In this document: positions 8,891 through 64,000 of the stretch, piece after piece
How positions within the stretch are numbered: the stretch's first letter is position 1
How the letters are laid out: each line of letters opens with the position of its first letter
The notes under the pieces: model-generated
Seen by the model: the letters and a program-made list of their open reading frames with translations, nothing else
The model's database searches: none
Told to the model about the DNA's origin: nothing
Made by a program: the position numbers and the translations under genes
NCBI GenBank assembly: GCA_037043015.1
Contig: CM073328.1
Location: 62,001-126,000, forward strand
From: Bryum argenteum
Taxonomy: Eukaryota > Streptophyta > Bryopsida > Bryales > Bryaceae
DNA: 64,000 nt
Direction: 5' to 3'

Positions 8891-9019
8891 GTGTTGGAGT
8901 GGCTTATTGTGCATTGTTGTGTGCACAAGTGTGTTTGCACACTCCTAAGGGGCTGATTTGAGTGTTTAGGTGGTAGATTTAGGTTGTTGGTGTTGTAAGG
9001 GCAGAGTTTGTGTCTAGCC

Positions 9020-14000: not shown

Positions 14001-14436
14001 TGTATGCACATGGGATGTGCATGGGTATGGCCGAGGCGGGGAAGTATCCCTGTGCTGCTAAGTCCCAGGGGCTGACAACGTAGTCTTCTGACGGAGTCCG
14101 TTCGTGTAGTTGGTGCTGTTCCCCGGTGCCTCGTGTGTCTCCCTCGGATTTTGGTCTCCCTGGCTCCTGCATTTTTCCACGGTGCGCTGCCTGGCTTTGC
14201 CTGATGCCTTGGTAATTTTGGGTCTTGTGTGGAGTACTCCCGGCTGTCGTGGTTTGTGTGTTGTTGCTCGTTGTGTCCATATCCTGTGCCTCGTCTGCCA
14301 ATGTCTTATGAATGTCTTGCAGACTTAGGGCCGTCGTTAGCCGTGGCACCGTGGCGTGTAATCTTGTTTGAGCTTGGCGGAATTGACAATTGTAGCATGG
14401 GGGTCGAAATGGGTGCTGTTGACGAGGAGCACTGTG

Positions 14437-26141: not shown

Positions 26142-28039
<1,898 letters not shown>

Positions 28040-28381
28040 AGCTCTGCATTCTCGTGGCCATCACTCAGGTGGAGCTATGACAGCCCATGTCCGAATGCGT
28101 CTGTCTATTTCTTGAAAATCGCTCGCGATCTAGATTTCAGACCCGTTCTGCCCTGGAAGGGAACTCTGGTCGTGGACGCATGCAATTTTTTTGAAAATTT
28201 TTTGGAAATTTTTTGAATTTTTTTTGAAAATTGCGGTTAATTCTTAGTTGGTGTATCTCTAACATCAGCTTTACATGATATTCAGTTGCCGGAAATGCCA
28301 TGTCTGCATCTGTCTCTGTCTTACGATATGGAACTCGGCCTTATACTGAATGCGAGTATTTACTGAATGACCCAGAGAAGA

Positions 28382-28460
28382 ATTGAGGACCGGGCGCAAC
28401 ATTGAGGACTGGGCGCAACATTGAGGACCGGGCTGAGGACGGGGCTGAGGACGGGGCGGC
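28382..28460 (+). repeat. Minisatellite, 19-bp unit
   Basis: Tandem ATTGAGGACCGGGCGCAAC units (about three) grading into GGCTGAGGACGG repeats, inside the segment missing from RIQ copy 2. Confidence 0.8.
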
Positions 28461-28713
28461 ATCCTCCCCGGGGGTGGCAAGTGCCGTCAATCCTACCCAT
28501 TTGCCGCGAGGCTTACATCCGACCACAAGAATTTTGACGACGAGGAGAATTTGGACTAAATCATTATCCTGGTGGGCAGGGCGTGTGTTCGTCTACTGGT
28601 TGTGCAGATTTGGAGGGTGCTCGTCTATGCCCCAACTGCTGCACATTGATAGCGGTGGGATTGTCGTGAAGTTGTGAGAGGCTTGTTTCTTCTGTTGCAG
28701 GAAGACCACGGCT

Positions 28714-29316
28714 ATGGCGGCCATGGCTCAAACTGCAGTTGGAATTCAAGCATTGAGCTTCTCGGCGAATTGCAGCTCTGTGCAAAAGCTGAGCGATGGC
28801 TTGGTGCGCGACAAGAAGATGTGTCCTCCGGCTCGGAAGTCGGTCCAGGTGCGAGCTATGGCGCAGAAGAAGAAGGTGAATGCCTATGACGACGGGTGGA
28901 GTAAGCAGTGGTTTGGCGCGGGCATCTTCGCTGAGAACATCGAGTCGGAGCCTGTGAATATTGTGAAGACGCTGGAGAAGAAGAAGCTGTTGTCGCAAGT
29001 GGAGAAGGCGGGCCTGCTCAGCAAGGCAGAGAGCCTGGGAGTGAGCTTGTCACAAATTGAGAAGCTCGGCCTCCTGTCCAAGGCAGAGGACCTCGGATTG
29101 CTGAGCCTAGCAGAGAGATTTGCGACCGCCAGCCCCGCCGCGTTGGCGTCGCTGTCGCTGCCGCTCATTGTGGCGGGCATCTTCATCCCCATCCTCGTGC
29201 CCGACGATTCCACAGTCATTGTGGTGGCGCAGAATGTCGTGAGGGTGGTATGCCTAGCGACCGCCGGGGCTTTGTTCGTAGGCAGCATAGTGTTGAGCGG
29301 CTTGCAAGAGGAATAG
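28714..29316 (+). CDS. RIQ: RIQ/DUF1118-type thylakoid protein, copy 1
   Basis: 200 residues. An N-terminal Ala/Ser-rich region (about 1-50, MAAMAQTAVGIQALSFSANC) looks like a chloroplast transit peptide. The mature part has repeated LLSKAE(S/D)LG units (LEKKKLLSQVEKAGLLSKAE, IEKLGLLSKAEDLGLLSLAE), then a hydrophobic segment, the PDDST loop, a second hydrophobic segment and the C-terminus GALFVGSIVLSGLQEE. This matches the DUF1118 family of Arabidopsis RIQ1/RIQ2, grana-thylakoid proteins that affect LHCII organisation and non-photochemical quenching. An acceptor-like TTGCAG lies at 28695-28700, 13 bases before this ATG, and the frame stays open back to it, so an upstream exon (as at 51101-51162) may belong to the ancestral gene; here that upstream sequence has been replaced by DHAR copy A. 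Confidence 0.87.
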   Translation: MAAMAQTAVGIQALSFSANCSSVQKLSDGLVRDKKMCPPARKSVQVRAMAQKKKVNAYDDGWSKQWFGAGIFAENIESEPVNIVKTLEKKKLLSQVEKAGLLSKAESLGVSLSQIEKLGLLSKAEDLGLLSLAERFATASPAALASLSLPLIVAGIFIPILVPDDSTVIVVAQNVVRVVCLATAGALFVGSIVLSGLQEE

Positions 29317-30300
29317 CGTGGCGTAGCCCTGACAATATGACGAAGAGGAACAATAATACTAATAATAATTAATAACAGGAGCAGCAGCAGGAGGGATTTG
29401 TTGACACCACATGTGAGCGTAATTCAATTCAATGTAATTACACTTGTTCAGCATGACGGCTAGAAGTTTTGTAAATGCAATCCGAATCCAGCCAGCAGGA
29501 TTGGAGGAGTGCACTAGGAGCGTGAGCGTGTGCAGGAAGTATGTAGCTTAATCTAGTACACTCGTAGCTTGTACATGAGAGAGAGGTTCGAGCATTGTGT
29601 ACGACACAGCGCAACATCTCTCGGTTTCTTTAAGTGATGGCTGCATCTTTGCGAATGTCCAAACATTGTCAATTCTCTCCCGCATTGGAACTGTAAGTAG
29701 CTAGGCAGTAAATGTACGAAGTGAGGCAGTGGGGCGGGCATGCTTTTCTTATTATGGTACTAGTATGATCTCACCCTGCACGGCACTTACCTGCATTTGA
29801 AGGTTGAGGGGAATCGTGGAAGCTGTGATTTGACTTCACGCAGTTGCAACCCTGTCTGGGATTGTTGAGCTAGGGCTTCCTCACCTTGCCTGCATACAGA
29901 GTACTCGAAGATGGAACCTACCTCACCTAGCTCACGCACAATGTGTGGTGAGGAAGTATTGTTTACACTCTTTCCTCTCTTTTCCTCACAATTTATTGTG
30001 CTGCTTCCTCTTTCTAATTCCTCAGATGCTCGGAAGATGATTGCGGTGAGCTACTTCCAAATCTATACTTCTAGATTGCTAGGAAGGTGAATGCATAGAG
30101 CTCCTTCATGGGTATCGTAATTAAGGTTGAATTTTGGTGGAGAAGCATAAATTGGGATTTTGATCCAACACCCCACCTCAGGATAAGTAGCTTTGGAGTT
30201 TCCATTAAGCACTCCAAGTCTTGAAGTGTTGGCTCTTATTCTTCTTATTATCGCTATGCACATTGTCCATTTTCACTCCTAACATGTTGTTTCATGTATA

Positions 30301-31713
30301 ACTAGAAATGCATTCTACATTATTGGGTTTACTCTGAAGCCTTTATGCTTTGAAGGAAGTTGCAAACAAAAATGGAATAATTGAGCGTATTAGAATGGAC
30401 CAACGTTATACTTCAAGTTTGGTTGCCATAATTGACCCCTACACATCTTTGGTGTCAAAATCTAACAAGCTCAAATTTTGAAGAGCCATGTGATGCTACA
30501 AGTGTCTCTTCTCCTCATGCAAAAAGCCATGAGCTTCACGCTCCATGTGCCTTCAAAGAATGAACTTTGAAGAGATATAATTACTTTATTCATGATGCTT
30601 TCTCAATCACAAATGAAGCCTAGTTTTGTGGTAAAGGTTGCATATCTATCCAAAATGGTATGATTTTACAACATGTATAGTAGTAATGGCACCTCTTGTG
30701 TTAAGATTTTTTAACATGGGGCGAGTTTTTTACCATTGCAAGCCAATCATGTGAAATTATAATTAGTTTCTCATAAATTATCTTTTTTACAAAAGTATGG
30801 TCTTAAGATAAAACTCATTAACTTTCTAGTTTGAGAAGTTTTTATCCAACTAAATTTGGTCGTGGATTTCCAATGATGTTATTATAAGGAATAAATATCA
30901 AAGAAATACATGGTTCTTGAGGAGGTGTGTCTCCTTCATCCACATTCAACTTTATCTCTTGGATTGAAACCCATGCTTAATCTCGTTCTTCTTGTAAAAA
31001 TCTTTGCTGGAAGATCCAAAATGGAAGAAAATAATAAACTCGAATAGGTGATTACATTGTCCTTTTGCACTTGGTTTTTAAATTTGTCGAATTTAGCGTA
31101 AAAGCTTTGAGCCATGGACTCGTGGAATTGAATTGCCTCTACTAAAATTTTCTTCATCATCTCTTTGCTCTCTTTCTTGGTTCTTGATTGACTTTTCATT
31201 CATTGCTCATCCAACCACAATCACTCCCCTCCTCAACAATGTGTGGAATACAAAATTTTGGTGAAATATATCCCATGTTCAAAACATGAGACAAAGGTTA
31301 ATTTCAGAAGAAGAAGAAGAAGAAGAAGAACACTAGACCTGTGAGGGTTGGCGTGAATAAAGTGTCAGTTTGACCTACCCTTGATGATATGCCCACAGGA
31401 CATAACAACAACGGTATAGGACTACTAACCCTCTCAGGATGGACGCTACATGAAGAAGGTTAATTTCACATGAATGCATGCCATGAATTTATATAACTAT
31501 GAAGAGATTGTTACTTGAAGAACAAAAGAACCACATGTGGGAGTGCTAATGAGCAAATTGTGAAGACCAAGTAGCCAAGTGCAATTTTATTTAATTGTGC
31601 ATACTTCAAAGAGGGATCAAGTAAGTATTTTTTAATGTAATTGTCTAGTAGTTCTAAAATTACTCATAAATTAGATTCTCTGTACTATTGTTTCAAACAA
31701 TTAATACAATAAA
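30301..31713. other. A/T-rich intergenic DNA with (AGA)n microsatellite
   Basis: No gene recognised. A trinucleotide (AGA)n run lies at about 31306-31331. Short open frames (such as one on the minus strand at 30936-31199) have no recognisable domain and typical A/T-rich random composition. Confidence 0.6.
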
Positions 31714-41262: not shown

Positions 41263-43551
41263 CTAAGTCGCAGGTTGGAGTGGCTCCACTCCATAGGCCA
41301 CTTTGAAAGGTGACTCCTTAGTCGCCGAGTGTGTGGCCGCATTGTAAGTGAACTCCGCCAACCCCACATAGTCTACCCAATCACGTTGGTCCGCACTCAC
41401 AAAGTTCCTCAAGTATTGGTTCAAGACCCCATTCACCCTTTCAGTTTGCCCATCTGTTTGGGGATGAAAGGCAGTGCTAAATGTCAACTTGGTTCCCACC
41501 TTCCTAAAGAAGTGTCTCCAAAATGCACTTGTGAACTTTGGGTCTCGATCTGACACAATCACTCTTGGCAACCCGTGATGCTTCCACCATGCATCGAGAA
41601 AGATCTTGGCGGTCTCAAGCGCAGTTGCAGTTCCTCTAGTTGGCACCATATGAGCCAACTTGCTAAACCGATCCACCATCACTAAGATGGCATCATACCC
41701 TTGCGACTCGGGAAGGCTTGTGATGAAGTCCATAGACACACTATGCCAAGGACCCGGCGGAATTGGCAATGGTTGCAACAAGCCCGCTTGCTTTTTATAT
41801 GAAGCCCGGTTAAGTTGGCACTTCACACAAGTCTTCACAAAGTGGGTTATGTCATCTTTCATCCCCGGCCAATAGTACCTCCTTGACACCGTTGCAATGG
41901 TAGCCTTTTCTCCCTTATGGCCGGCTATGGGACTATCATGTTCCTCCTTCAAAACCAACAATCTAAGCTTGCCTTGAGGAACATACACCCTACTTTGCTT
42001 ATACTTGAGCAATCCATTCACCAACTTGATCTCCTTGAGCTTCTTGCCCTTCCTAAGATCACCAAGCATTTGTTGTGCCTCGGGGTCCTTCATGTACCCC
42101 TCTCTTATCCGCCGTTCCCAATTGCCTTCACCCTTATACATGAGCCGCAAGACTTGGGTGGTGCTCATGGCATGAAACTCTTCCTTTCTACTTAGCGCAT
42201 CCGGCACCACATTGTCACGGCCCGGTTTGTGGATCAAGTCCACATTCATGAGCGCCAAGGTATCATGCCACCTCAATTGTTTGGCACTCATTTGTGCTTG
42301 TGTCTCAAAATACTTCAAAGACACATTATCGGTGTAGACCTTAGTCTTGTGCAACCCCAAGTAATGTTGCCATGTCTTCAAACAATGCACCACCGCAAAG
42401 AGCTCCTTCTCGTGAGTTGGCCATCTCATTTGACACCCATCCAACTTCTTGCTCTCATAGGCAATTGGCCTACCATCTTGCATCAAGACGCCTCCAATGG
42501 CAAAGTCACTTGCATCTGTGTGGACCTCAAAAGGCTTATCAAACTCAGGGAACTTCAACACTGGTGGAGATGACAACTTGTTCTTGAGTTCCTCAAAGGT
42601 TTGGTAGCAAAATTCATCCGATACTTGGTTCACCCCTTTTTTCAACAAGTCGGACAAAGGCTTGGCAATCTTAGAGAAGTTGCGTATGAAGCGGCGATAG
42701 TAGTTTGCTAGGCCAAGGAATGACCTAAGTCCCTTTTGTGTAGAAGGCCGCTTCCACTCTTGAATTGCCTTCACCTTCTTCATGTCCGGCTTGATTCCAT
42801 CTCCGGTAACCACATGGCCCAAGAGCTCCATCTCAAGTTGTGCAAACTCACTCTTTTCCCCATTCGCATAAAGCTTGTTGTCTCTAAGCTTCATGAGTAC
42901 TGCCTCAAGGTGCCTTGCATGTTCCTCGGCCGTCTTGGAAAACACCAAGATGTCATCGATGTAGACAATCACAAAGTCATCCATTTCCTCTCGAAAGATA
43001 GTGTTCATAAGGGTTGTGAATGTTGAGGGTGCATTGCACAACCCAAAGGGCATCACAAGTAACTCATAAGACCCATACCTTGTGCGGCACGCGGTCTTTT
43101 CCACATCCGCATTGGCAATGCGGATTTGGTAGTAACCCGACTTTAAGTCTATGCGACTAAAGTACTTAGCTCCCGCCAATCTATCAAAGAGATCATCAAT
43201 TCGAGGCAAAGGGTAGTTGTTCTTGATGGTCACCTTATTCAAGGCCCTATAATCAATGCACATCCTAAGCTTGCCATCCTTCTTGTCCACAAAGAGGACC
43301 GGTGCACCATATAGTGACTTGCTTGGTCTCACATAACCCCTTTCCAACAAGTCGTTTAGTTGCTTCTTTAGCTCCATCAACTCTTTTTGGTTTAACCGAT
43401 AAGGTGCCTTAGAAGGTGGCTCACTCGAGTAGCACCTCGATCTTGTGATCCACTTCTTTTCTTGGGGTAGCTCTTTGGGTAACTCATTGGTAAGCACATC
43501 CTTGTACTTGGCCAACACCTCTTGAATTTCTTTGGGAAGTGGTTGTTGCAC
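41263..43551 (-). CDS. G3 RT-RNase H-integrase region
   Basis: One open stretch of 762 codons of a Ty3/gypsy chromovirus. [32 protein letters not shown], the catalytic [13 protein letters not shown]. RNase [17 protein letters not shown] and [10 protein letters not shown]. Integrase: zinc finger ending CVKCQLNR, core [30 protein letters not shown] and [12 protein letters not shown]. It is typical in order and spacing for the family. The parent element as a whole is broken elsewhere. Confidence 0.96.
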
Positions 43552-43633
43552 CCCTTCCCCTCATGCCCAAGTTGCTCTTCACGAGCCATCACCACAAATT
43601 GATGTTCCAACATTTGGTCTAAAGAGACCAAGT

Positions 43634-49944: not shown

Positions 49945-50171
49945 TTAAATACATAGATTACGAATGTCTTCAAAATGATATAGAATATTATTAGTATAGA
50001 GAAAGAAGGTATATTTTTAGTATTATGGGGTTTATTTTAGTAGTAATCATAAATTATAGTTGCTAACTAAAAGAGTTTGTAGGATTATTAGATATATTCT
50101 ACAATTACATGTTTTTTGTGTTACAAAAATGCGATAAAGGTTTGGATATCTTAGCCTTTTATACCACTTAA

Positions 50172-50509
50172 CTGATATTTAACTAATTATGGACTTATTT
50201 CAAACTTATGGACTTTTTGCAACCACTGAAGAACCTTGGTTTTATCGGCGGCCAGCCGACACATCCCCATATCTGCGACTTTCAAAAGGTCATAACTCAG
50301 TCAATTTTTGTCCAAATGAAACATATGAGGTGTTTTTTGACATCTACATTTTCTGTAGATATCAAAAAACACCTCATATGATTCATTTGGACAAAAATTG
50401 ACTGAGTTATGACCTTTCAAAGATTACGGATGGAGTCTCAAGGTTATATCGGCGGACAGTCGACATTATTTCTGGACTATGAATTTGTCCATAATTAGTT
50501 AAATATCAG
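50172..50509. mobile_element. Foldback MITE with long hairpin
   Basis: Perfect 23-bp outer inverted repeats (50172-50194 and 50487-50509; core TTAACTAATTATGGAC) and near-perfect inner arms of about 60 bp centred near 50350 (AACTCAGTCAATTTTTGTCC and its inverse). A transcript would fold into a long stem. No target duplication could be fixed. Confidence 0.75.
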
Positions 50510-50511
50510 AT

Positions 50512-51100
50512 ACTTGAAGGAGTCTAAAATTTTGGAAATGAATGGTGTACATAAAAATTGCCAAGATACATTGCATCCGGCTGTAAGGTTCAATAATCAC
50601 CGGAAACAAACATTTTTTCATGATGTTGATATTGAATGGGATACCACATTCAAGGATGAAATGGTCCACCCAATTTATCTGAATGCGATTTTTTGATCCG
50701 TCAATTTGCAAGTGCATGATTCTACCCCAAGTGCAAAAATTCCTAATTCTGTGTTATTTGGTTGAAAATGAGAAGGTCTCGTTCGTGATAGGTAGGGAAC
50801 GGGGAAGCCAAGTGGAAGGGGAAAGGGAAGGGGATGGGGAATTGCACTTTAATGGAGGACATGGAGGGGCAGAGCCAATGGGGGAGGGCGAGGGCAGATA
50901 CGGTAGGGAGGTGAGCGGCCAATCAGCAGGCATGCCCCTTATCCCTTCCTAACAGCTCGACCATCAGCGGATGCTGCCCTCGCCGCGACTGAGCGACTTA
51001 CTACAACTTGCCCACCCACACTTCGTCTTGCGCACCCTCGTTTCTGCCAACCCACCTCCCCTGCCCCCTCGCCACATCGTCTGCTCTGATCGCCGCAGCC
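50512..51100 (+). other. Upstream DNA of candidate plastid-protein exon
   Basis: A/T-rich at the start, then from about 50770 GA-rich and GC-rich. It could contain a promoter for the exon at 51101; no TATA box was clear. Confidence 0.3.
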
Positions 51101-51162
51101 ATGGCGTCCGCTGTCTGCGCTTCCTCCAGCGTTGCTGCTGCCGTAGCCACCCCCTCCACCAG
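51101..51162 (+). CDS. Candidate transit-peptide first exon
   Basis: The ATG follows CGCCGCAGCC and opens a 20-codon exon MASAVCASSSVAAAVATPST with a GT donor after CCACCAG. It is Ala/Ser-rich, lacks acidic residues and looks like the start of a chloroplast transit peptide. It lies about 500 bp upstream of RIQ copy 2, whose coding segment starts after an acceptor-like CAG, and the phases are compatible (…ST + R). It may be the true first exon of the RIQ gene or belong to another plastid-protein gene. Confidence 0.4.
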
Positions 51163-51327
51163 GTCTGGAATCTCACTTCTCTTTCAATCCCTCTTCTCCC
51201 TCACTTTTGTTATGTAATTGCCCTCCCTACCAACGTCGCATCATTAATGCCAATGAGTGCAACGATTTGCACCTCCATGAGACCACATACTGCCCCTGTC
51301 TGTCAGAGGATGGTCTTATCTGCCTTC

Positions 51328-53278
51328 GGGACACAGCTCAGTACTAGAGCTCTGCATTCTCGTGGCCATCACTCAGGTGGAGCTATGACAGCCCATGTCC
51401 GAATGCGTCTGTCTATTTCTTGAAAATCGCTCGCGATCTAGATTTCAGACCCGTTCTGCCCTGGAAGGGAACTCTGGTCGTGGACGCATGCAATTTTTTT
51501 GAAAATTTTTTGAAGTTTTTTTGAAATTTTTTTGAAAATTTGAAAATTGCGGTTAATTCTTATTTGGTGTATCTCTAACATCAGCTTTACATGATATTCA
51601 GTTGCCGGAAATGCCATGTCTGCATCTGTCTCTGTCTTACGATATGGAACTCGGCCTTGTACTGAATGCAGGATGACCACGGCTATGTCGGCCATGGCTC
51701 AAACTGCAGTTGGAATTCAAGCATTGAGCTTCTCGGCGAATTGCAGCTCTGTGCAAAAGCTGAGCGATGGCTTGGTGCGCGACAAGAAGATGTGTCCTCC
51801 GGCTCGGAAGTCGGTCCAGGTGCGAGCTATGGCGCAGAAGAAGAAGGTGAATGCCTATGACGACGGGTGGAGTAAGCGGTGGTTTGGCGCGGGCATCTTG
51901 GCCGAGAACATCGAGTTGGAGCCTGTGAATATTGTGAAGATATTTGGAGAAGAAGAAGTCGTTGTCGCAAGTGGAGAAGGCGGGCTCGCTCGGCAAAGGC
52001 GAGAGCCCGGGAGTGAGCTTGTCACAAATTGAGAAGCTCGGCCTCTGTCCAAGGGCGAGGAGGACCTCGGATTGCCGAGCCTAGCGGAGAGATTTACCGC
52101 CCTTGACCCCGCCGCGTTGGCGTCATTGTCGCCGCCGCTCATTGTGGCGGGCATCTTCATCCCCATCCTCGTGCCCGACGATTCCACAGTCATTGTGGTG
52201 GCGCGAGAATGTCGTGAGGGTGGTATGCCTAGCGACCACGGGCTTTGTTCGTAGGCGCATAGTGTTGAGCGGCTTGCAAGAGGAATAGCGTGGCGTAGCC
52301 ACGACAATATGACGAAGAGGAACAATAATACTAATAATAATTAATAACGGGAGCAAAGCAGCAGGAGGGATTTGTTGACACCACATGTGAGCGTAATTCA
52401 ATTCAATGTAATTACACTTGTTCAAACATGACGGCTAGAAGTTTTGTAAATGCAATCCGAATCCGGCCCGGCGAGGATTGGAGGAGTGCACTAGGAGCGT
52501 GAGCGTGTGCGGGGAAGTATGTAGCTTAATCTAGTACACTCGTAGCTTGTACATGAGAGAGAGGTTCGAGCATTGTACGACGACATGCGCAACATCTCTC
52601 GGTTTCTTTAAGTGATGGTCGCATCTTTGCGAATGTCCAAACATTGTCAATTCTCTCCCGCATTGGAACTGTAAGTAGCTAGGCAGTAAATGTACGAAGT
52701 GAGGCAGTGGGGCGGGCATGCTTTTCTTATTATGGTACTAGTATGATCTCACCCTGCACGGCACTTACCTGCATTTGAAGGTTGAGGGGAATCGTGGAAG
52801 CTGTGATTTGACTTCACGCAGTTGCAACCCTGTCTGGGATTGTTGAGCTAGGGCTTCCTCACCTTGCCTGCATACAGAGTACTCGAAGATGGAACCTACC
52901 TCACCTAGCTCACGCACAATGTGTGGTGAGGAAGTATTGTTTACACTCTTTCCTCTCTTTTCCTCACAATTTATTGTGCTGCTTCCTCTTTCTAATTCCT
53001 CAGATGCTCGGAAGATGATTGCGGTGAGCTACTTCCAAATCTATACTTCTAGATTGCTAGGAAGGTGAATGCATAGAGCTCCTTCATGGGTATCGTAATT
53101 AAGGTTGAATTTTGGTGGAGAAGCATAAATTGGGATTTTGATCCAACACCCCACCTCAGGATAAGTAGCTTTGGAGTTTCCATTAAGCACTCCAAGTCTT
53201 GAAGTGTTGGCTCTTATTCTTCTTATTATCGCTATGCACATTGTCCATTTTCACTCCTAACATGTTGTTTCATGTATA
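51328..53278 (+). repeat. RIQ segment duplication, copy 2
   Basis: Homologous to 28020-30300 but without the ~345-bp stretch 28354-28698. It is almost identical at 51331-51650 and 52620-53278, but about 3 percent or more diverged at 51880-52620, where changes cluster at CAG/CTG sites. It ends at CATGTATA. Confidence 0.93.
51685..52288 (+). pseudogene. RIQ: RIQ/DUF1118 gene, copy 2, frameshifted
   Basis: The N-terminal ~75 codons (MSAMAQTAVGIQALSF through the GWSKRWFGAG motif) are intact. Further on, small insertions and deletions relative to copy 1 shift the frame, starting in the stretch equivalent to LEKKKLLSQ (about 51940), again near 52045-52065 and near 52203. The downstream hydrophobic segments and PDDST are still legible in other frames. 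Most of the changes fall at CAG or CTG triplets of copy 1. It is either a true pseudogene or a functional copy with consensus errors. Confidence 0.85.
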
Positions 53279-54294
53279 GGGTATAAGTATGCTAGACTAT
53301 ATACTTTTTTGAGTCACACTGCCATTTTCAAGGAGAGGTTCAGTTTGCACTTGATATTGCTCGAACTTAGAAGTTGATTTTTCCAAAAATGTTTTTAGAT
53401 GCTAGACATGTTACACGTAAAGATCTTGTGTGCGTTGTTGATTTCTTGAAAAACCATGTTGAGTGGGAGAAATTTGTACTTTTAGTATAGTTAGTAAAAT
53501 GTCACAGGGTGCTTGTTCATACAAAAGTACAAACATCTGTATCGTTGGAAGTTGAAATGCATTTTTTTTTTTTTGGCAATGAAGATAAGGAGGGGAAGTG
53601 GCTTGGAATCTACTCTCACTCTCATGTCTGCCACTCACGATTGGCCAAAATCTTAGAAACAAGTTAGTTATGGTTTGCAATTGATATCTGGTGGAAAAAT
53701 GAAGATTTTTTCAATCGGATTGAAGATTCTGGATGCCAGCAGCTAGTTCTAGAATGGCTTCTGGTTGATTTCAGAAAAAGTTAAATTTACCGTTACTTAT
53801 GTTTAGGCGCATCATTATGTCATTTTGATACCTTGAGTACTGTTAGTACATGATTGTACTTTGGTTGGAGGAGTTTGAATTGAATGCTCATCCTGAATAT
53901 TACTGACAATTCTACGCATGCATCCTGGGTAGTACAGAAACTTCAATGCGCATCTTGAGCATTAGTCAGAAATAAATTCACATCCTAACGTTCTACTGAC
54001 AAATCTACGCATCTTGGGTATTAGGGACAAATTAATTCTTCTTGGATGCCGGTCCTTGGCGACGCCGCCACTACGTCCTTGGCCACGCCGCCACTGCGTC
54101 CTTGGCCACGTCATCGTTGTCTCTCTCAGGACAGCGTTTGCTGAGTGCGTCCGGGGTGATGTGTGATTCTGTGCGTTCTAGCTGTTATCGAAGCTTTCCT
54201 TGGGTTCGGAATTTTGTCAATCTTTTGTGCATTGGAAAACTGACGCTGATAGATTGCTCAGAAGTTGTTTGTCTTTGTCTATGAAATGTGAAAA
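53279..54294. other. A/T-rich left flank of transposase cluster
   Basis: No gene. It contains short recurring motifs (ACTGACAA(A/T)TCTACGCAT, CATCTTGGGTATTAG, CATCCTGGGTAGTA) at 53900-54030, possibly subterminal repeats of a DNA transposon. The start at 53279 coincides with the abrupt end of homology to RIQ copy 1. Confidence 0.4.
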
Positions 54295-54627
54295 ATGGTG
54301 ACGTCTACTGAACGCCCAGTTGTTCTCGTTCAAAAACGTATTACATCATATTTCACTGCAAGTGTTCCTACTGAGTCGGGTTATTGTAGTTTGAGGTCGA
54401 TTAGTGAGAGTAGTGACTCTGGATACAATTTGTGTTGGGAAACCCCCGTGTCTAAGCAAGGAAATCTAGCATTTTATCTAGGCCAGTGCAATAGAAAAGA
54501 CGGGTCAAGAAGGCGTTCTCTATTCAGTACCTCACAGTTAGCAACACATCAGACAACTACCTTCATTGTTGCAAATTCTCTTTCTACCGCGAGACTTCCT
54601 TGTGGGTCTTCAAGTGATAGCTGCTAA
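54295..54627 (+). CDS. Small ORF with PIP-box-like motif
   Basis: 110 codons starting MVTSTERPVVLVQ. Residues 13-20 read QKRITSYF, which fits the PCNA-interacting (PIP) consensus Q-x-x-(I/L/M)-x-x-(F/Y)-(F/Y). The rest is Ser/Thr-rich with no domain. It lies 210 bases upstream of the transposase start, and a good donor (GAGG|GTGAGT) occurs at 54667, so it may be part of a 5' exon of that gene, though the frame closes before the donor. Function unknown. Confidence 0.4.
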   Translation: MVTSTERPVVLVQKRITSYFTASVPTESGYCSLRSISESSDSGYNLCWETPVSKQGNLAFYLGQCNRKDGSRRRSLFSTSQLATHQTTTFIVANSLSTARLPCGSSSDSC

Positions 54628-54840
54628 TTTGGTCCGGCGAGGACGTGAGAAGGTCAACTTACGAGGGTGAGTTGTACAACATTCTCATGAAACAATGTTC
54701 ATTTTTTTGGCCAGCTTCTTTCTCCATGCATAGGTTTCATTGGATCATGTTAGCTTTGCAACTCTTGAACCACGTACTCTGGTTTCTAGTAGATGACTGA
54801 TGTCTGCATGCCTTCCAACTGTTTATTCTTTTGCGAAGGA

Positions 54841-57800
54841 ATGGGTAACGTTGCTAAAAGACAACGGGTGCGAAATGGCATCAATCGCCCGGGTTTAGCA
54901 GCAAGGGCCACTGCAGCTCGCTTGCACGAAGAGCAGCGCACTTTGGAGACTGAGAATGCAAGAGAAAGGAAGTCTCGCCAGAGATCACGAGATAGAGAAA
55001 GACACAGGGAAGCTCTTATTTTAGCGTCTGCAGCACCCGATGTTGAGGTGGACGACAGTTTATCAGTGAGAGAATTGAACCGAATCTCACTTCGAGTAGC
55101 GCAGTATTTAGTTCAGGAGTTGAGATGTTGTCCCGGTCCCCAGAGTAGGAGAGATGTTGTGGAGAGGGTATTGCGCCATAACACTGTATCGCCTTTGCTA
55201 CCTGAGTACTATGCTCGGCCACAAGAAGCAAAGGCCATTCATTCGTTCATTGAGAACTTCAGGAATGAATTGCAATTAGTAAAGGTGGCTAACTCCAACG
55301 AGTTGTTAGCCAGGAAGAGTGCCTTGTTGGATGCAGCAGTTAGCTTGGGAATTGATGGTGTGAGACCATTGTCCCGTGTTTTGAAGACGTCAGAACTGAG
55401 CATCAATATTGCTTTGAATAGAAGGATTCGGGCCGCTCATACTGAGGAAACGATGTTGGGACTTCGCTTACATCGCAAGAAGAGAGGGGGTCTCTCTGAC
55501 TACGCCAAAGATTGCATTGAGCGATGGTGGAATGCAGAAACTAAGGTGTCCCCAAACAGAAAGGACGTTATCAAACACAGAGTAGGTCGGAAAGACTGGG
55601 CTGAGCCTCATCCGACTCATTATCTGTGTGATTCTCAGGTATGTTCAAACTTATTGTTTAGGAGTTGATTTTTTCCCCTATTCGTGAGTCCTGATACACT
55701 TTTTGAGTCGTCTTGCAAAATTCCTACTTTTGCATAAATAGTGTTTTACAATGATTAGAAGATGGACACACTTAGACAAACCCATAAGCATGATGAGTTG
55801 TCTAGCTAGCACATCCACTATTCCAAGTACATTCTTAGCCCGGACCACAAGTGCTTCTAATAATATTCTGAATTGCTCTTGTAGTAGTTAATGGTGTAAA
55901 TGTATAGCCCATAGCACTTTGTTCACCTGTTGTACAATGCGGAAGTTAGAGCTTGCACATTTTTTACTTTGGACCTTAAAGGTTGAATGGAAAACCAAGT
56001 ACAAGCGGGTACTCATGTACTTTATGTTGCTAGTAACGTACCCTGTGTACATATAGCATCGTCAAGTATATATGGAACTAGCACTTTGTTCACCTGTTGT
56101 ACAATGCGGAAGTTAGAGCTTGTACATTTTTTACTTTGGACCTCAAAGGTTGAATGGAGAACCAAATACAAGCGGGTACTCATGTACTTTATGTTGCTAG
56201 TAACGTACCCTGTGTACATAGAAACTACCAATTTATGTACTTAGTGTATGCATCCAATGTACTATTGTATGATGTCCACTTAGGAACCCAAAGTTTGTAA
56301 TGCATACCGGAACACATGCATCACTTATAGTACATTGTGGTGATACTTTCTGTACAATTTGTATCTTTTGTGAACTTGTTATGTACATGGTTTACAAAAA
56401 GGTCCTCATTGTACCTATTGTGCATCCTTTTGAGTTTTGCAGACCTCGTTCTTCTTGCGGTTCAAGGAAGTCCACCCGGAATGTAGTGTGCGGCAGAGGG
56501 CATTTGAGAGGCTGAAGCCGTGGTGGGTGCGGAAACTGAAGGAGAGAAATACATGTTGCTGTATTTACCACGTTCAGATGGACTTCATGAAGATCGGACT
56601 AAGGAATCTGCGAGACAAATTGCGAGGGCTACACGTTAACTGTGTTTGTGTTTGTGTTATTTGCAAAAGCGATGCAGAGGGGATTTGCTGTGCACATGAC
56701 CAGATTTTTGAGCGAATAACCTTGCTGTGGGAAGCATGTGTGTGTCCGAAAGGGGAGTTCGATGTGTGGCATAAACTTGAATGCCTTATGGGAGATTGTT
56801 CTAGATGTGGTTTTCATTTGCTTTCATTTTGTCCTCTTGAGAAGTCTGTTTCTAACACATTTAGCTTGAAGTGGAAGTGTTTTGAGTACTACCAGGTGGG
56901 AGTGGACACTGAGACTGGAAGAGCCAAGAAAAGAATTAGGGAGGCTTTCAAAGAGACACCTGCACATGAATTTTTATCATACATGGAGAAAACTGTTACT
57001 ACCTTCATCACGCACAACTTCAAAGCTCGATGGCAAGATGAGCAATGCCAGCTGATGATGAAAAATGTGCCTGAGGGAGTTGTTGTGTCCCACATTGACT
57101 TTGCTGAAAATTATAGCTTTGCCATCCAGAATGAGGTGCAAAGCTTGTATTATTTCAGTACAAGTGTGACCATATTAGTTCACATTACAATGTGGAAAGA
57201 AGGAGACCAGACCATGAAGCAGACGCACTTTTATATCTCTGATGACAAATCCCATGATTCTGCTTTTGTTCAGCATTGCATGATGTTGCATTGGGATTGG
57301 CTACTTGACTCTGGATTAACTCCGGAGGAGCATTGGGTCTATAGTGACGGCTGCAGTGCACAATTTAAGTGTGCAACAGCGATGTACTTTGTGGCCCGGT
57401 ACCCTAGGCTTACCGGAGGTTGCAAAATGAATTGGAACTTCTTTGAATCCGCTCATGGAAAGGGTGAATGGGATGGTGCAGGGGCTGTTGTGAAGAGGGC
57501 ATTGGCTGCTGAGCAAATCACGAATCCCTTGAGGCCCTTGCGAAATGCAGCCGAAGTGGTGGATTTCCTCGAGAAGAAGTATACAGAACGTGTACCAAGT
57601 TCATACGCACGAGCTTCAACTTCCCCTCTTTCTCGTGTTTTTTGGTTGATTGGAGCTACAACTGTAGATCATGTAGATAACAGTATGAAATGCCACACTT
57701 TGTCAGGCTCCAAAAGTCTCTATTCTATTTCAGGCTTCTCCATAACAGACCCTACTCTCCTTAGGACTCGTGAGTTGTCATGCTTTTGTATCCCATGTAT

Positions 57801-58343
57801 AGATGGTGAATGGACTAATTGTGAGAACTTAGCACATGTGCAGGAATGGCGGGTTCAAAGGTTGCAGCCCCTCAGCGCTGCTGCTGTAGCTCAACAGATT
57901 GAGGAGATCGACAATGAAGCAAATTGGGTGTACGATGGTGTTTCTGAAGAGATTGGCGATTTGGTAGAAATTGGCGACAACTTCATGGTACCTGCAGAGG
58001 AGGGTAATGACGATGGGGTTGAATACTACATTCTCCAGTGTGTGGCGAAGAAGTTTGTATTACAAGAGCCCCTGACTTGTCCATGGGGGGGGTATTTAGA
58101 GCTGGAGACGCTATGATTCGAGCAAAATACTACCAGAAGCATGGGCGTGGAGAGGAAACGTACTTGTTTTGTGACAAGGCAGTTGATGCTCATGTAGAGG
58201 CTCATCTGGTTCGTGCTTGCAAATTCCCTATGATTCTTGCTTCCTATAGGGTGAAGGGAACCCGTGTATACAAGGTGTCCAGTGAAATACTTGAGATATG
58301 TGAAGAAGCCTTACGGGAGTGGTGGGCATTCAATGCTGATTAA
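54841..58343 (+). CDS. DDE-type transposase-like protein (2 exons, one frameshift)
   Basis: Exon 1 54841-55638 and exon 2 from 56443 join in phase (GT-AG, 804-bp intron). The frame is open back to 54793; I chose the ATG at 54841. The N-terminus is very basic (KRQRVRNG, ERKSRQRSRDRERHRE), probably nuclear and DNA-binding. Exon 2 has cysteine-rich pairs (CVCVICKSDAEGICC) and a probable RNase-H-like catalytic core: SHIDFAENYSF (Asp at 57097), VYSDGCSAQFK (Asp at 57346) and WNFFESAHGKGEWDG (Glu at 57445), with 82 and 32 residues between. I recall similar DF(S/A)ENY / SDG..(S/G)Q(F/Y)K / HGKG..DG proteins, uncharacterised, in many invertebrate genomes. The frame shifts by one at a G8 run (58085-58092); the C-terminal ~80 codons (FRAGDAMIRAKYYQKHG onward, to the stop at 58341) lie in the next frame. 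Superfamily not assigned. Confidence 0.72.
55913..56224 (+). repeat. 167-bp tandem duplication in transposase intron
   Basis: Two copies starting AGCACTTTGTTCACCTGTTG at 55913 and 56080. Each contains several GTAC motifs. The second is slightly shorter. It lies wholly inside the 804-bp intron. Confidence 0.88.
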
Positions 58344-58536
58344 GTATGTTCCATTGATCAGTTCAAGAGGTCCTCACTAAGAGTGTTTCTACTATTTTGG
58401 GCTTCGGTAGAGGGATTGGTTAGAAGTATTTGTAAATACTGTTAGTACTATGAGTATCAATAAATAGTTGTGAGTTTTTAAACCCACAATCATATAGGTG
58501 AGCAATAAGATGTTTATTTCGTATTTGCTTTGTGAT

Positions 58537-58602
58537 TACATATAGTACATGTACATAAAGTACATTTTCTACATATAGTACATGTACATAATGTACATTT
58601 TT
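58537..58602 (+). repeat. 33-bp tandem repeat between convergent genes
   Basis: Two units (58537-58569, 58570-58602) containing TAGTACATGTACATA, each partly palindromic. They sit in the 300-bp gap between the ends of the transposase and SUVR-like genes, so they could lie in both 3' UTRs. Each carries TGTACATA, which equals the PUF-protein RNA site UGUANAUA. Confidence 0.88.
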
Positions 58603-58658
58603 TACATCTATGAGTACAAAATTGCTACATCTAAAAGCGAGACAACATGAGTTCTAAG

Positions 58659-59727
58659 TCATCTAATCCTACGTGGCTTAGGTGGTTTTCGGGCTGATTT
58701 TCGCTGAAACTGGGTTGGTAACACCTTCCATTTGCAAAGGATACTGTTACACCTACAATGGAAATGCATTTGTGATGGTCCGTTGTGTTTGAAACATGTG
58801 CCGTAATCCCACGTCAACTCTTCTCCAACTTCAATGATGCGATTCGAAAAGAAGGCCACATGATAGCAGCGGCGGTCCACACACTCAATTGAGACAGGTA
58901 CGTCCACTAGATTTGGATCCCCACATCTGCAATGTCGAGGGACAAATGTTAGTCCTAGCAAAGAAGTAAAAGACAAAAAGAAAAAAGAAAAAATGGATTC
59001 GGTTTCGTACCTGTGGTTCAAAAATCTGGCCACGTTTCCGAAGTGAGTGGAATCCAAGCACAAAGCACTATTGTCATCTACCTCTTGCTCAGTAGCCCAG
59101 TCCGCATCTAATGCCATACTATAGGTGAGAGCGCCATCTTGCTGCTTATTTCTAACAATGAGCTCAGCATTAGTTAAAATCTCTCCTGTTAATTCAAAAA
59201 CGAATGCACCTTTCGGTATACGCTCAGCTCCCCGAATTCCCCATCCTGTAAGGGCTGTATGAAAGACCTCTAACCGGAACTTCATGCCCTGCTGAACAAC
59301 ACGATTCCCACATTCACTGCTGCACCTGCACTTCACATTACACTCTTTAAGGAAAATACGAGGAACATGACCCTCGCATATTTCCACACCCCTAATACAT
59401 GGGGCACCCTTCTTACAGAAATGTACATTATTATTGTTCCCCCCCCTCGATGAACTCATCTGCCAGAATGCCTCCGACGTATGCACTGTGACCCCCGACA
59501 CTTGCTTGGCATGGACAGGCAGCATCCACATCCATGCAATTGTCGGGGCATTGACAGTAGTCCCCAGGGTGCAGGCTCTCAAGTGTCGTAGGTACCTTTG
59601 CTTTATCAAAAATTACACTTTTTTGCATGTACTGAAAATCAGCCAAATGATGATCAGAGGAAACAACTCGGACAGGAGTCTTCTCCCGCCCCTTAGACAA
59701 ATCTTCAGCATCGTACCAAGTTTGGGC
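58659..59727 (-). CDS. SUVR4-type histone H3K9 methyltransferase
   Basis: SET-domain lysine methyltransferase. Minus-strand exons 59727-59011 and 58926-58659 flank an 84-bp GT-AG intron; any 5' exon is unresolved (first in-frame ATG at 59700). Pre-SET cysteines: YCQCPDNCMDVDAACPC, CKKGAPC, CNVKCRCSSECGNRVVQ. SET: GWGIRGAERIPKGAFVFE, TGEILTNAEL, MALDADWATEQEVDD, ALCLDS, GNVARFLNH followed by RCGDPNL (NHxCxPN motif completed by splicing), YHVAFFS and EELTWDYG. Post-SET: CRCNSILC. The EILTN-EL, LDADW and ALCLD signatures are those of plant SUVR1/2/4. A G8 run (59439-59446) shifts the frame by one between pre-SET and SET. The N-terminal WIYLD domain of Arabidopsis SUVR4 was not found. Confidence 0.85.
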
Positions 59728-59908
59728 CTGACAGCCACGAAATATGTTAGATCAACCCTCAAATGAAGCCTGCGTCAATGAGGGAGGGATCCTCACAATC
59801 CGTTGTATTAAAAAAAAGCATAGTTACGCACAATAAGAGCTCATCATTGCAGCTCAGTAGACCAAAACCCACAGTTAAATGCAATAACAAAAACACCCTG
59901 CTGTAGAC

Positions 59909-62900
59909 CTATTTTGTAGTGGCAACCCTCGCCTGCTTCTGCAAGGAAGTGCCACCTACCTTCTGACCCTTTCCCTTCTTAGCTGTGACCTTCGTAACCA
60001 TTTCTGCATCAACCTCCTTGGCAGCACGTGATCTGGTCCTCCGACTGGTCTCTGAAGCTAGAACCAGATTATCGGTACCTTGAAGAAGCTCCGATAAGTC
60101 CTTCCATGTCCTCTTCTCTGGGGAGTAGAGATTCTCAGGGGCGGGCCGATTTTCTGGTTCTAAATCATCTAGCTCTGGATGCTCCCTTTCCCTCCTTGCC
60201 TTGACCTCCGAAACTGACGTTGACGGTGGTATAAGGAGCAGCTCTCCTCCCTCCTGCATAGCCGTATCTGGGGCCTCCACTGCCACCGTTGTCGTGTGGA
60301 CCTCCTTCAATACTGGCGATAATTTAACAGAATGCTCCAGCGAAGAAGCTTCTAATGTTGTAGCCTCCACCGTAGTAGTCTCAACCTGTTCTGTGAGAGG
60401 GTCGAGACTCCTCTGAGAAACATCCACTTCTGTAGCTACAGCTTGCACCTTCGGCATCGTATCCCCCAACCCTTCTCTAATACTGTCCATATCGTCCTCA
60501 TTAGGTTTGACCGTAATCCCTTTCCCTCGCTGCCCTACTAAGCATTGTGACCCAGATTTGAACGCTATCGGGCTTCTACCTTCATCTTTCTCTAGCTCGA
60601 TCGCCCTCCCAATTGCCAATTCCTCTTTTTCCCCAGAAGTCGCTCTCGGAAGTTCTAACTGGGGCCTGGGATGCTCCAGAACATGAAATCCAGCGCTACC
60701 ATGGCTGCTAAACCCTGACATCATGCCATAGTCTTTGAACGCTGCCCCCTCACATTCTGAAATCTCTAGTTGAGAGTCCTCCTGGCCTTGTAGCGTAGGA
60801 TTCTCTTGACTGAACTCTGAGTCCATGACGTGCTTTTCCGCTTGTGTAGCATCCTTGGAATCAACATCGTTCTCTTCAATGATATCTGAAAGGTACAATA
60901 ACACAATCACATGAGTACTTACTGTACTCCGATACCAGAGGAAAGTACAAAATGGATATGAAACAAGAAATAGTTGTACAAAGTATAGAAATGTACAAAG
61001 ACTAGAAATGTAGAAAGTATAGGAATGTACATTCAAGGAATAGAAATGTACAAGGAATAGCAATGTTAAGGAATAGAAATGTACTAAGCTATCAACATGT
61101 ACTGAAAATACAGATGTACTCCACATAAACTATTCCATGTACTCTCAAAAACCCAATGTACTAAACAAACAGAAACGTACTTGGAATATCACTGTAGAAA
61201 GAATACCAATGTACTCAAAATACCAATGTACTCAAAATACCAATGAACTAATATTACAAAGCGTACAACTAGTAAAAAAAGTTATATACTATTTCTATTA
61301 CCTGAAAGTAGCGGTTTAATAGTACCAGCCCGAGGGAGCGTGAAGTGCCCATTGTACTCACAAAACAATCATTCAGTACTGTTTTCGTTAAGCACCATAA
61401 AAACAAAGCAGAAAAAGCATAGAAAATACCTGTTTCCGGTCCTCTCAGTACATTGTTGTTGGCAGACCCTGTCGTCAGCAAAAAAACACATTGTTTATTA
61501 AAGTCCTCGAAGTACCTATAGAGTGGTAATGTACATAGAAATTAGGCAGAGAACACAATCGTATGAACTGTCCCGGTAAGAAGTATAAACTCTGAAGGCA
61601 GAAACTCTAAGTGTACAATCATTCACACAAATTGAATCACAAGACATAGCTTCAATGAAATGTGAACTTACCAATTGCTGGTAACTTGGACCTCGCTTGG
61701 TGTATTCTGTCCTTCATAATTCTCTTCCTCTCTTCAGCCAACCCGAGCGTTAATTCCCTTTGTGATAGCTCTGCATCTGGCTCTCCCCAACCAAAGCTTC
61801 GATGCCACGCTGGATGAGACAACTTGAAGCAACCCTCAGCCACACACTTGCCATTTCTAGAGAAAACTACTGAAGCACAAAATGGATGATACAAATGCTT
61901 ACACGAGGATACTACAATGTCACTCTGAGGAAATGGGAATGAACACAAACTGCAAGCTGTAATTCTAATAAACCTGCTGTCATCCCTAAAATCACTAAAA
62001 TCACGTGATGGCAAAGGAGGATCCTCGGGAGAGTACACCATCGGCCATGGTAGGCAGTTCAAAGTACTCCTTCCTGCCGTCAGCTGAAACTTCTCTGCTG
62101 CTAGGGCATCGAATTGCAGCTGGCCATTTTCCAAGCTCCTTGTCAATGATGCCATGGCAGCTTCAGCTTTGCCGAGCTCCACTCTTGCCGCTTTCACCTT
62201 TGCAGCCTCCTCCTCCATCAACTCCTGAATTCCTTCCATCTTTATCGTTTCCTTGAATGTATCTTTGCCTGCTTCTTGAAGTGTCTTGATGAATGCCTTC
62301 TTTTGTGCCTCTTGCTTCTGCAAGGACAGCATTCCCCAATCAGATTGCTTGCAACTCAATGAAGCCTCTTCGAGCCTCTGTCTTGCCTCCTTCAATTCCC
62401 GAAGGTATTGCTGCTCCAAGTGAACTGCCTCCATCAGCTGTCGCACTTCTAGCAGGCGCTCTTCAAGATGTGAATTTTTCGAAACCAAACCTGTGAGCGT
62501 CCATCCACCGTTCTCTGGCACGCCGAGCCCTGAAGCCATCCCAGATACGTTGCCCGCACCATCGCAGTCACCCATTGAGATAGACGTCGAAAGACGTCGT
62601 GACTTTGAAGCATTCCTCCTCCCCTGAGAGGCATCCACCAGGGCTCTCTTCTTGCCGCTGCTTTCCTCATCTCCCTCCGTCTTCACTTGCACACCACGGT
62701 CTACTCTGAATCCACGCCATTCCTTGCCTCGCACGTCAACGTTTTTCTTCCCCTCCGCAGTGATAGACGCAGCGACTGCTTTCTTCAGTTCTTCCAACTT
62801 CTGACAGTCTAACGCGTATCGACTACGCTGACGCTTATTAGTCTCCTCTCCGAAGGCACACCAGTTCACTCTACCGCAACCTTCCTCGTACTCAAGCGCC

Positions 62901-63535
62901 ACCCCTTCGGCAAAACGAATCGTGACAAGATTCGGTGTTTCATCCTCGCCATGCTGGTAGAGGATCGGGTGCAAATACTTCACCCTATTCACAACCTCCT
63001 GCACATTGCAATCACCCCAAGCATACCCAGCCCGCCCCGATTCCCCGTATGGCTTCCCAAATAGCTTCCTCAGAGTCTCTGCAGGGACAATATTCTTGCG
63101 AAAGTGATGAGGATTCTCGCCTTTGTCTTCAAGCGCGAACTCTGTCTTAAAATCGTGCTTCTTCAGCTGTCGGGGGGGCTTCTTCAATCGCGCAATTTCG
63201 TCCTCAACATCCTCAGCAGACCTGAAAACCTTGAGAGATCTGTCCTTCCCCCTCCCTTTTGCTTTTGAAGTAGATCTGTCACCTCCCTGCAGCTCCCTCG
63301 GATCTTCCTCATTGCCGCTTGGCACACTCGATCTCCCCGAACGCGCCGGTAAACTACAGCACTTCGACGTCTCCAGAGCTTTGTCGGCGTTCCCAGCATC
63401 CAGCTTTCCCTCTTTCGCTTGCGCACTCTGTGCGTTCTCTTCGTTCACCAAAGCTACAGCGGCTTCCTGAAGGCTCCCCTCGGCGTCCTCGCTCTGCACA
63501 ATTGAAGCTTTCTGTTTTGGGCGCATACGCCCCAT
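59909..63535 (-). CDS. Large coiled-coil protein with RING-like domain (3 exons)
   Basis: Exons 63535-61672, 61468-61430 and 60885-59909 join in phase to 959 residues. I start at MGRMRPKQKA; the frame is open to an earlier ATG at 63595. Residues ~1-130 are charged and probably disordered. About 130-250 holds a compact unknown domain (LRKLFGKPYGESGRAGYAWG, VVNRVKYLHPILYQ). About 375-505 is coiled coil. About 528-570 is a RING-like zinc site CSLC...SSCKHLYHPFCA...CVAEGC (C-x2-C, C-x-H-x2-H-x2-C, C-x4-C), which could be a ubiquitin-ligase-type or other zinc domain. The last exon is acidic and Ser/Thr/Glu-rich and ends in a basic tail (RRTRSRAAKE). I do not recognise the family. An additional small alternative exon may end at 61302. 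It lies just upstream of the SUVR4-like gene on the same strand. Confidence 0.65.
60940..61270 (-). repeat. Degenerate TGTAC repeat inside an intron
   Basis: More than a dozen spaced TGTAC motifs, in units such as AATGTACTCAAAATACC repeated in tandem (about 61200-61250) and AGAAATGTACAAAG (about 60985-61080), in the second intron of the RING-like gene. Confidence 0.75.
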
Positions 63536-64000
63536 TTTGAGACTCACCGAGCACTCCCTCCAAACTACAGAGCAACCCACAAAAGCTAAACCCACAAAAG
63601 CTCAACCCACAACAGCTCAACCCACTCCCCGAACCTACAGCAGCACGTCGACCGGAGGAAAGTTGTTCAAAAACAGAAGTGGCGCGAAAGCAGAGTGAGG
63701 CAGCCTTCCGAACGAGAGAGACGACGGCTACCGGGTATCACCGGTCATCGATTTGGAGGCTATAATGGGTAACCGGTGGGCAGCGGTAACCTCAACTTAC
63801 TGAACTTGTCCATGTGACACATATGAGACCACGTGATGAGTAGATGTGACACATAGGCTCCAACTCATCAATCAGTTTTTCAGTACTCTCCAATGATGAT
63901 TACAAATCCATAAATGAAAACTAAAAATCAAATAATGAAGATCAAATATCAAAATTGACTACGTCAAGAATTTCAAAATGAAGATCAAATTTAATAGGAA
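63536..64000. other. Upstream region of RING-like gene and right edge
   Basis: Purine/C-rich near the gene with repeated CACAAAAGCT(A/C)AACC units at about 63578-63620, then A/T-rich with GAAGATCAAAT repeats at the edge. It probably contains the 5' UTR and promoter; GGCTATAATGG at about 63760 could be a TATA-like site on the plus strand only. No gene or terminal inverted repeat found. Confidence 0.35.

Follow-up and report, generated by a model that had tools for sequence, protein, structure and literature searches.

A family of large DNA transposons in the moss Bryum argenteum very probably carries a SUVR4-type methyltransferase gene, most likely fused to a RING-like finger

The stretch of DNA studied here (the window) comprised 64,000 nucleotides of Bryum argenteum, bases 62,001-126,000 of contig C8 (CM073328.1), and the genome searched with it was 258.8 Mb. 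The window contained a DNA transposon of 13,350 bp that ran from position 53279 to 2,628 bases beyond the window end (G000:C8:115279-128628). It was very probable that this element belonged to a cut-and-paste family of large DNA transposons whose full elements carried a SUVR4-type PreSET-SET gene convergent with the transposase gene and most likely fused to a RING-like finger. We observed the mobile unit and its ends, target duplications of 4 bp, a site lacking the element, further copies and a gene set that recurred. Features of cut-and-paste DNA transposons with terminal inverted repeats (TIRs) were found, namely shared TIRs, target-site duplications (TSDs) and a transposase with a predicted RNase H fold and a conserved acidic triad. 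An earlier note, made from the letters of the window alone, had suggested a large DNA transposon with a captured SUVR4-like gene; the TIRs, the TSDs, the empty site and the recurring gene set supported this suggestion. The element appeared to bring its own chromatin-marking tool. A transposon family with its own SUVR4-type writer lets one test whether mobile DNA steers the mark that is used against it.

The ends of the element were fixed by an empty duplicate of its insertion site in the same window, since this site held a single TATA (30297-30300) and the element had TATA on either side. The features that defined the boundaries were as follows.

53279..64000, no strand: in-window portion of the 13,350-bp transposon, from flank comparison with the empty site
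53275..53278, no strand: left TSD, TATA; the right copy was at window-equivalent 66629-66632
53279..53294, plus strand: left TIR, GGGTATAAGTATGCTA; the right end was GGGTGTAAGTACGCTA on the minus strand
51667..53278, no strand: left flank of the element, 96.1% identical to window 28696-30300
28696..31304, no strand: empty duplicate of the insertion site, with the left flank up to 30300 and the right flank from 30297

The right flank (window-equivalent 66629-67639) was 95.5% identical to window 30297-31304. The first bases of the insertion were GGGTATAAGTATGCTA and the last were TAGCGTACTTACACCC, forming imperfect 16-bp inverted repeats that matched at 14/16 bases when inverted, with the right repeat at G000:C8:128613-128628. 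No long TIRs were found in a repeat search of window 50000-64000 or in a 12-mer search that included the right flank. Most simply, the duplicate at 28-31 kb would be the insertion site without the element, and it was possible that it was a site left by clean excision. The compact cluster that the earlier note began at 53279 thus started exactly at the left end of the element, but its right end lay outside the window, at the equivalent of 66628. The duplicated stretch contained a DUF1118 gene (Pfam expect value, E, 3.3e-45), of a chloroplast-related family. This gene and the SUVR4-type SET both pointed to a plant genome. In the duplicated stretch, window 28020-31706 represented the empty site, and 51328-53278 together with L009 2629-4062 the element-bearing copy. 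Additionally, a pair of inverted repeats, each about 79 bp long (88.6%; L009 86-164 and 560-638), lay in the right-hand portion of the element, ahead of the RING-SET gene.

Similar ends were present at other copies. The TIR pattern GGGTRTAAGTAYGCTA with up to 2 mismatches was not above control genome-wide (451 vs 422 matches), and therefore the argument for shared ends rested on inverted pairs around copies and on their TSDs. Several of the best matches formed such pairs, and 11 of the 26 matches with 0-1 mismatches coincided, as judged by eye, with the end of a copy that the protein searches had located. Among 20 end stretches, 16 made eight pairs and four were single ends, one of which (C1:28658681) differed in its first base (TGGTATAAG). 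Together with the window element this gave nine pairs, a convenience sample from the first places listed, with 6/9 on C1. All nine had perfect 4-bp TSDs, read by eye from coordinates: TATA, AGAA, TAGA, ACGT, CACC, TGGT, ATAT, CGCA and TTGA. Five of them, 13.4, 34.4, 42.7, 11.8 and 69.8 kb in length, carried transposase, SET and RING in order, and the long ones probably contained later insertions. The remaining four included one with SET and RING, one with SET only and two (600 and 845 bp) without any of the three genes. Common ends with a TSD, which the earlier note had named as a sign of a single element, were thus found across copies. The two shortest elements (G000:C1:7196271-7197115, 845 bp; C1:27955907-27956506, 600 bp), with related ends and 4-bp duplications, were probably non-autonomous relatives.

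The transposase gene was located on the plus strand.

54841..55638, plus strand: upstream exon encoding a basic N-terminal part, start provisional; open reading frame (ORF) with donor CAG/GTATGT
56443..58343, plus strand: main exon with invariant D222, D305 and D347 (counted from 56434)

The phase of the upstream exon was obtained by arithmetic on its ORF, and by eye its product looked like the N-termini of P0087 and P0088. For the ORF at 56434-58113 (+) we found 95 relatives. The three invariant aspartates may form the active site. The predicted structure had an RNase-H/integrase fold, with an integrase match from VIA-align; Foldseek by itself gave weak matches only, including NurA, Argonaute and RuvC, and these were set aside. 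The main exon had no Pfam match with an E of 10 or lower, and the patterns that we used gave no match in viral contigs. A run of eight G (58085-58092) broke the reading frame in the window copy, and relatives such as P0002 and P0004 had a continuous frame across this position.

Converging on the transposase gene, the minus strand encoded SET and RING-like sequences that were most likely parts of one spliced gene with five exons.

61672..63535, minus strand: exon 1, conserved N-terminal region, long coiled coil and RING-like C3H2C3 finger; GT-AG borders
61430..61468, minus strand: exon 2, 39 bases, in phase; GT-AG borders
59960..60885, minus strand: exon 3, acidic linker; donor AAG/GTAGGT, also in the C1:17.0 Mb copy
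59011..59727, minus strand: exon 4, PreSET and N-terminal SET, frame broken at a run of eight G; GT-AG borders
58659..58926, minus strand: exon 5, encoding the C-terminus of SET (NHRCGDPNLVDVP when joined, EELTWDY) together with post-SET cysteines; GT-AG borders

Exons 1-3 could be joined into one open frame that continued in phase into exon 4, and the exon 4 acceptor was kept in the C1:17.0 Mb copy, with a 12-base duplication. The predicted product contained, in order, the conserved N-terminal region, the coiled coil, the RING-like finger, the linker, PreSET, SET and the post-SET cysteines. The RING-like assignment came from a C3H2C3-type cysteine/histidine pattern with an unusual last C-x4-C in the exon stretch 61655-63601, and these cysteines and histidines were mostly kept in relatives. 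The RING exon had 12 relatives (identity 41-88%). The predicted structure of this exon had a mean predicted local distance difference test score (pLDDT) of 48 and was set aside except for the coiled coil. The RING relative P0096 and the SET relative P0108 were located on contigs of equal size (8592 bases; chance 0.02 against jittered sizes, computed on rows other than those from named species); a similar coincidence for the transposase relative P0004 and the SET relative P0120 (5267 bases; chance 0.19) was weak. In the window copy the frame of exon 4 was broken by a run of eight G (59439-59446), and the close relative P0108 had a single open frame across this site. Since both genes of the window copy lost their frame within eight-G runs, the coincidence suggested a homopolymer sequence error, although it could be decay or slippage.

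The same genes recurred together in the genome. We found at least 97 transposase matches (78 of 544 candidates scored), at least 89 RING matches (68 of 454) and at least 202 SET matches (125 of 355). After merging, there were 78 transposase loci, 67 RING loci and at least 121 SET loci, the latter from the SET matches listed apart from the 22 last, each of which adjoined a match that was used. The pairing counts in this text are among the matches listed. A SET locus was present within 10 kb of 48/78 transposase loci (median 1.4 kb) and was convergent in all 48, whereas 2,000 trials of random placement gave a mean of 0.7 and a maximum of 5. With shifted loci, five controls gave 0-3. RING was within 10 kb of 24/78 transposase loci, convergent in 24/24, compared with 0.4 expected at random (maximum 4) and 0-1 in shifted controls; random placement supposed uniformly distributed loci, but the shifted controls did not. 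Among the 67 RING loci, 44 had SET within 10 kb, and in 43 of these it was downstream on the same strand. The full order of transposase, SET (within 10 kb) and RING (within 15 kb) was observed at 22 loci, so that other copies with all three genes did exist.

Pairing with SET (and RING) by transposase identity was 4/4 (2/4) at 80% or more, 12/14 (9/14) at 63-79%, 24/32 (10/32) at 57-62%, 6/6 (3/6) at 52-56% and 2/22 (0/22) below 52%. In short probes downstream of other transposases SET was present in 6/6. One of these probes, in the group below 52%, had a SET that was not listed, so the low SET pairing there was partly a limit of the search. On the basis of this one locus, the SET association may be older than the RING association. 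This locus belonged to a sister transposase group (G000:C8:11272822-11274492 and about 21 similar loci), which was mostly about 50% identical, with many stop-free members and no listed RING; SET was found beside the one sister-group transposase that was probed. In the C1:17.0 Mb copy, left homology started at element position 295 and the right end was at C1:17003658. The right flanks at G000:C1:17003658 and C1:30620076 were nearly the same, probably reflecting one insertion in a duplicated region; both copies were counted within the 78 loci and only one within the nine pairs. Finally, 71 of the 121 listed SET loci had a transposase or RING match no more than 10 kb away, a caution for annotation: in a genome of this kind, much of the SUVR4-like SET sequence may belong to transposons and not to the host.

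PreSET and SET of the SUVR4 type were found in the element gene. The Pfam SET match had an E of 7.8e-15 and the PreSET match an E of 2.1e-6 (28.6 bits, slightly below the 29.1 cut-off); identity to named SUVR4 proteins was 38-43%. WIYLD (PF10440) had no match at E up to 10 in any separate piece of the gene. A tree was built from the window sequence and 41 of 120 listed matches (20 relatives and 21 host-type), chosen and labelled before building. The host-type rows, 16 from named species together with P0119, P0121, P0125, P0126 and P0141, included Closterium, Selaginella and Diphasiastrum; there was no moss SUVR4 among the named matches listed. Six further WIYLD-bearing matches (P0135, P0136, P0153, P0178, P0181 and P0226) were left off. 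In this 42-row tree without an outgroup, a branch with 100/100 support split the 21 window-type rows from the 21 host-type rows. The split describes a lineage, short of a full census, and it was possible that the element SET formed a sister group inside the wider SUVR4 family. Two diverged copies (L030 and L031) had a nonsynonymous rate (dN) of 0.150 and a synonymous rate (dS) of 0.914 over 124 codons (dN/dS 0.16), indicating purifying selection on SET between these two copies, as estimated from their sequences. The comparison of the window with L032 was dropped, as its rows were misaligned, and those with L030 and L031 yielded no dS. Among five copies examined, the SET motif kept its NHR part in all five, and EELTWDY was present in three; the variants were ELMWDY in one copy and EELTW without the following DY in another. 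Taken with the relatives, the fold model and the cysteine/histidine pattern, the Pfam SET match confirmed the convergence of a transposase on SUVR4-like SET and RING-like sequence that the earlier note had described.

In the proposed mechanism, the transposase would cut at GGGTG(T/G)AAG-type termini and paste the element into 4-bp targets, and the RING-SET protein would work in trans as a chromatin writer, modifying histone H3 lysine 9 (H3K9) at copies of its own family. The element gene shared with Arabidopsis SUVR4, of the WIYLD-PreSET-SET class, a SUVR4-type PreSET-SET and a SET motif of the NHRC form. According to the available portion of PMC7218100, Arabidopsis SUVR4 converts H3K9me1 to higher states and shows in vitro ubiquitin binding through its WIYLD domain. 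This ubiquitin-binding domain is N-terminal in host SUVR4, whereas a coiled coil and the RING-like finger occupied its place in the element gene. The available text of PMC5725981 gives no RING-SET among its domain combinations, and that of PMC13017857 describes H3K9me3 as a mark that can be permissive in plants.

With regard to function, we tentatively favoured the possibility, a little short of an even chance, that RING-SET counters host silencing by pushing H3K9me1 to H3K9me3 and off the H3K9me2 loop. This direction was preferred because PMC12730594, in the part available, reads transposon-borne chromatin genes as counteraction. A more extended proposal, which we held with less confidence still, was that a single transposon-borne polypeptide combines a RING of ubiquitin-ligase-like character with a SUVR4-type H3K9 methyltransferase, the RING replacing WIYLD, so that it would both make and use a ubiquitin signal and set its own H3K9me3 on family chromatin; its SET would have been long associated with the transposase, would form a deep group of its own and would have seeded much of the SET sequence of the genome.

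Somewhat less probable was self-limitation, in which RING-SET would deepen H3K9 methylation on its own family or on rival elements and keep copy number tolerable. Purifying selection on SET between the two copies was in its favour, and SUVR4 is said, by the title of Veiseth 2011 (cited in PMC7218100), to place H3K9me3 on transposon chromatin. Deposition of H3K9me2/me3 by SUVR4 (PMC7218100, available portion) was also consistent with it, but the counteraction proposed in PMC12730594 pointed the other way, and selection for self-restraint would be harder to maintain. About as probable as self-limitation was a third possibility, that RING-SET modifies something else, for instance the transposase, or currently plays no role.

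It was unlikely that RING and SET were two genes of one element with separate transcripts. Unspliced exon 3 ran into an in-frame stop (59909-59911) that the C1:17.0 Mb copy shared, as two genes would predict, but every splice joint was canonical and kept the phase, the second copy also had the donor and acceptor between exons 3 and 4, and SET followed RING on the same strand at 43/44 loci. The two separate minus-strand genes of the earlier note were thus probably one spliced gene. Passive cargo, with the SET gene captured once and carried without benefit to the element, was less likely again: interrupted frames in many copies would fit it, but the dN/dS of 0.16, the conservation of NHR in 5/5 and EELTWDY in 3/5 copies and the deep shared SET group would not. 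Finally, SUVR4 is a plant host gene family and transposases adjoin genes by chance, but resident SUVR4-like and RING genes as accidental neighbours of a transposase deserved next to no credence, with all genes inside one TIR/TSD pair, an empty duplicate site, convergent co-occurrence at 48/78 loci against 0.7 expected and a SET group split from the sampled host-type SUVR4s.

Several points weighed against a transposon family with a RING-fused methyltransferase. The gene products, the fusion and the enzyme activity were predictions from sequence. The stop after unspliced exon 3 belonged here, as did the possibility of two transcripts and two proteins from the RING and SET parts. The RING identity was weak (best Pfam match zf-RING_16, E 0.0013, under the cut-off). 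There were two eight-G frame breaks in the window copy, and many other copies contained stops or interrupted frames. Moreover, 30/78 transposase loci were without a listed SET and 54/78 without a listed RING within 10 kb, and the 22 loci below 52% identity had listed SET at 2 and listed RING at 0. Additionally, the available portion of PMC7218100 was inconsistent, giving me2 with ubiquitin and me3 without it in one place and ubiquitin favouring me3 in another.

Pfam holds models for Harbinger and MuDR transposases. Neither identity was accepted for the window transposase, given the lack of a Pfam family at E up to 10 and TSDs of 4 bp, compared with 7-12 bp in Mutator (PMC10741241, available text). 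Kolobok and Academ were also considered as superfamily candidates. Ginger1 was rejected, since its CCGG-like TSDs were unlike those of the window family. The Sola superfamily, as described in the available text of PMC10741241, is characterized by a DDD transposase, TSDs of 4 bp and TIRs that vary, and it includes some elements above 15 kb and a moss example; captured genes (Fanzor1) occur in some Sola2 elements (PMC10741241, PMC3627910). Compared by description only, the window family was similar in its 4-bp TSDs, three invariant aspartates (a putative DDD triad), size range and occurrence in a moss. However, the Sola2 families of PMC3627910 have AT-rich TSDs, whereas those of the window family were mixed (including ACGT, CACC, TGGT and CGCA), and the available descriptions in both papers contain no SET or RING.

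Acquired SET methyltransferase genes have been reported in HarbingerS and MuDR transposons of Phytophthora (PMC12730594, citing Kojima and Jurka 2014, as far as its available text goes), and in this respect they resembled the window element. They differed in their oomycete hosts and Harbinger/MuDR transposases, as opposed to a plant host and a transposase without a Pfam match, 4-bp TSDs, a SUVR4-type SET and a probable RING-like fusion. Fungal DNA transposons carrying TET/JBP were another case of an epigenetic enzyme encoded by a transposon, proposed in the same available text to counter host silencing; their enzyme is a DNA dioxygenase, whereas the window element encoded a putative histone methyltransferase. 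The earlier note knew of no plant transposon with this gene set, and we likewise found none with transposase, SUVR4-like SET and RING in the literature searched. Thus, SET-carrying DNA transposons were known from oomycetes, and what was new here was the transposase, the plant host, the SUVR4-type SET and the probable RING-SET fusion.

The genes were surrounded by TGTAC-rich non-coding DNA, as the earlier note had observed.

55912..56430, no strand: TGTAC-rich intron of the transposase gene, containing a tandem duplication of 167 bp (motif counts, repeats)
58537..58607, no strand: TGTAC-rich repeat between the converging gene ends (motif counts, repeats)
60890..61660, no strand: TGTAC-rich intron sequence of the minus-strand gene, enclosing exon 2 (motif counts, splice model)

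TGTAC/GTACA occurred 18 times per kb at 56-57 kb, 10 at 58-59 kb and 18 at 61-62 kb, compared with about 2 expected. The reversed motif CATGT/ACATG was found 10, 9 and 3 times in these intervals; the first two peaks may therefore be partly due to composition. TGTAC pairs were not a habit of the genome, since TGTACNNTGTAC was rarer than its reversed control (785 vs 2077). As a marker of copies TGTACNNTGTAC was rejected, being absent from the element itself, and the 28 loci selected by means of it (L001-L008 and L010-L029, 224 kb in all) were element-free. A dense array of 7-base TGTACGC-type repeats at G000:C1:27304784-27305446 was apparently unconnected to the element.

Elsewhere in the window, two further ORFs at 11745-14436 had no match. 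Retrotransposon ORFs were identified by Pfam at 1996-5079 (reverse transcriptase), 8999-9796 (Copia-type gag) and 41266-43560 (reverse transcriptase and integrase).

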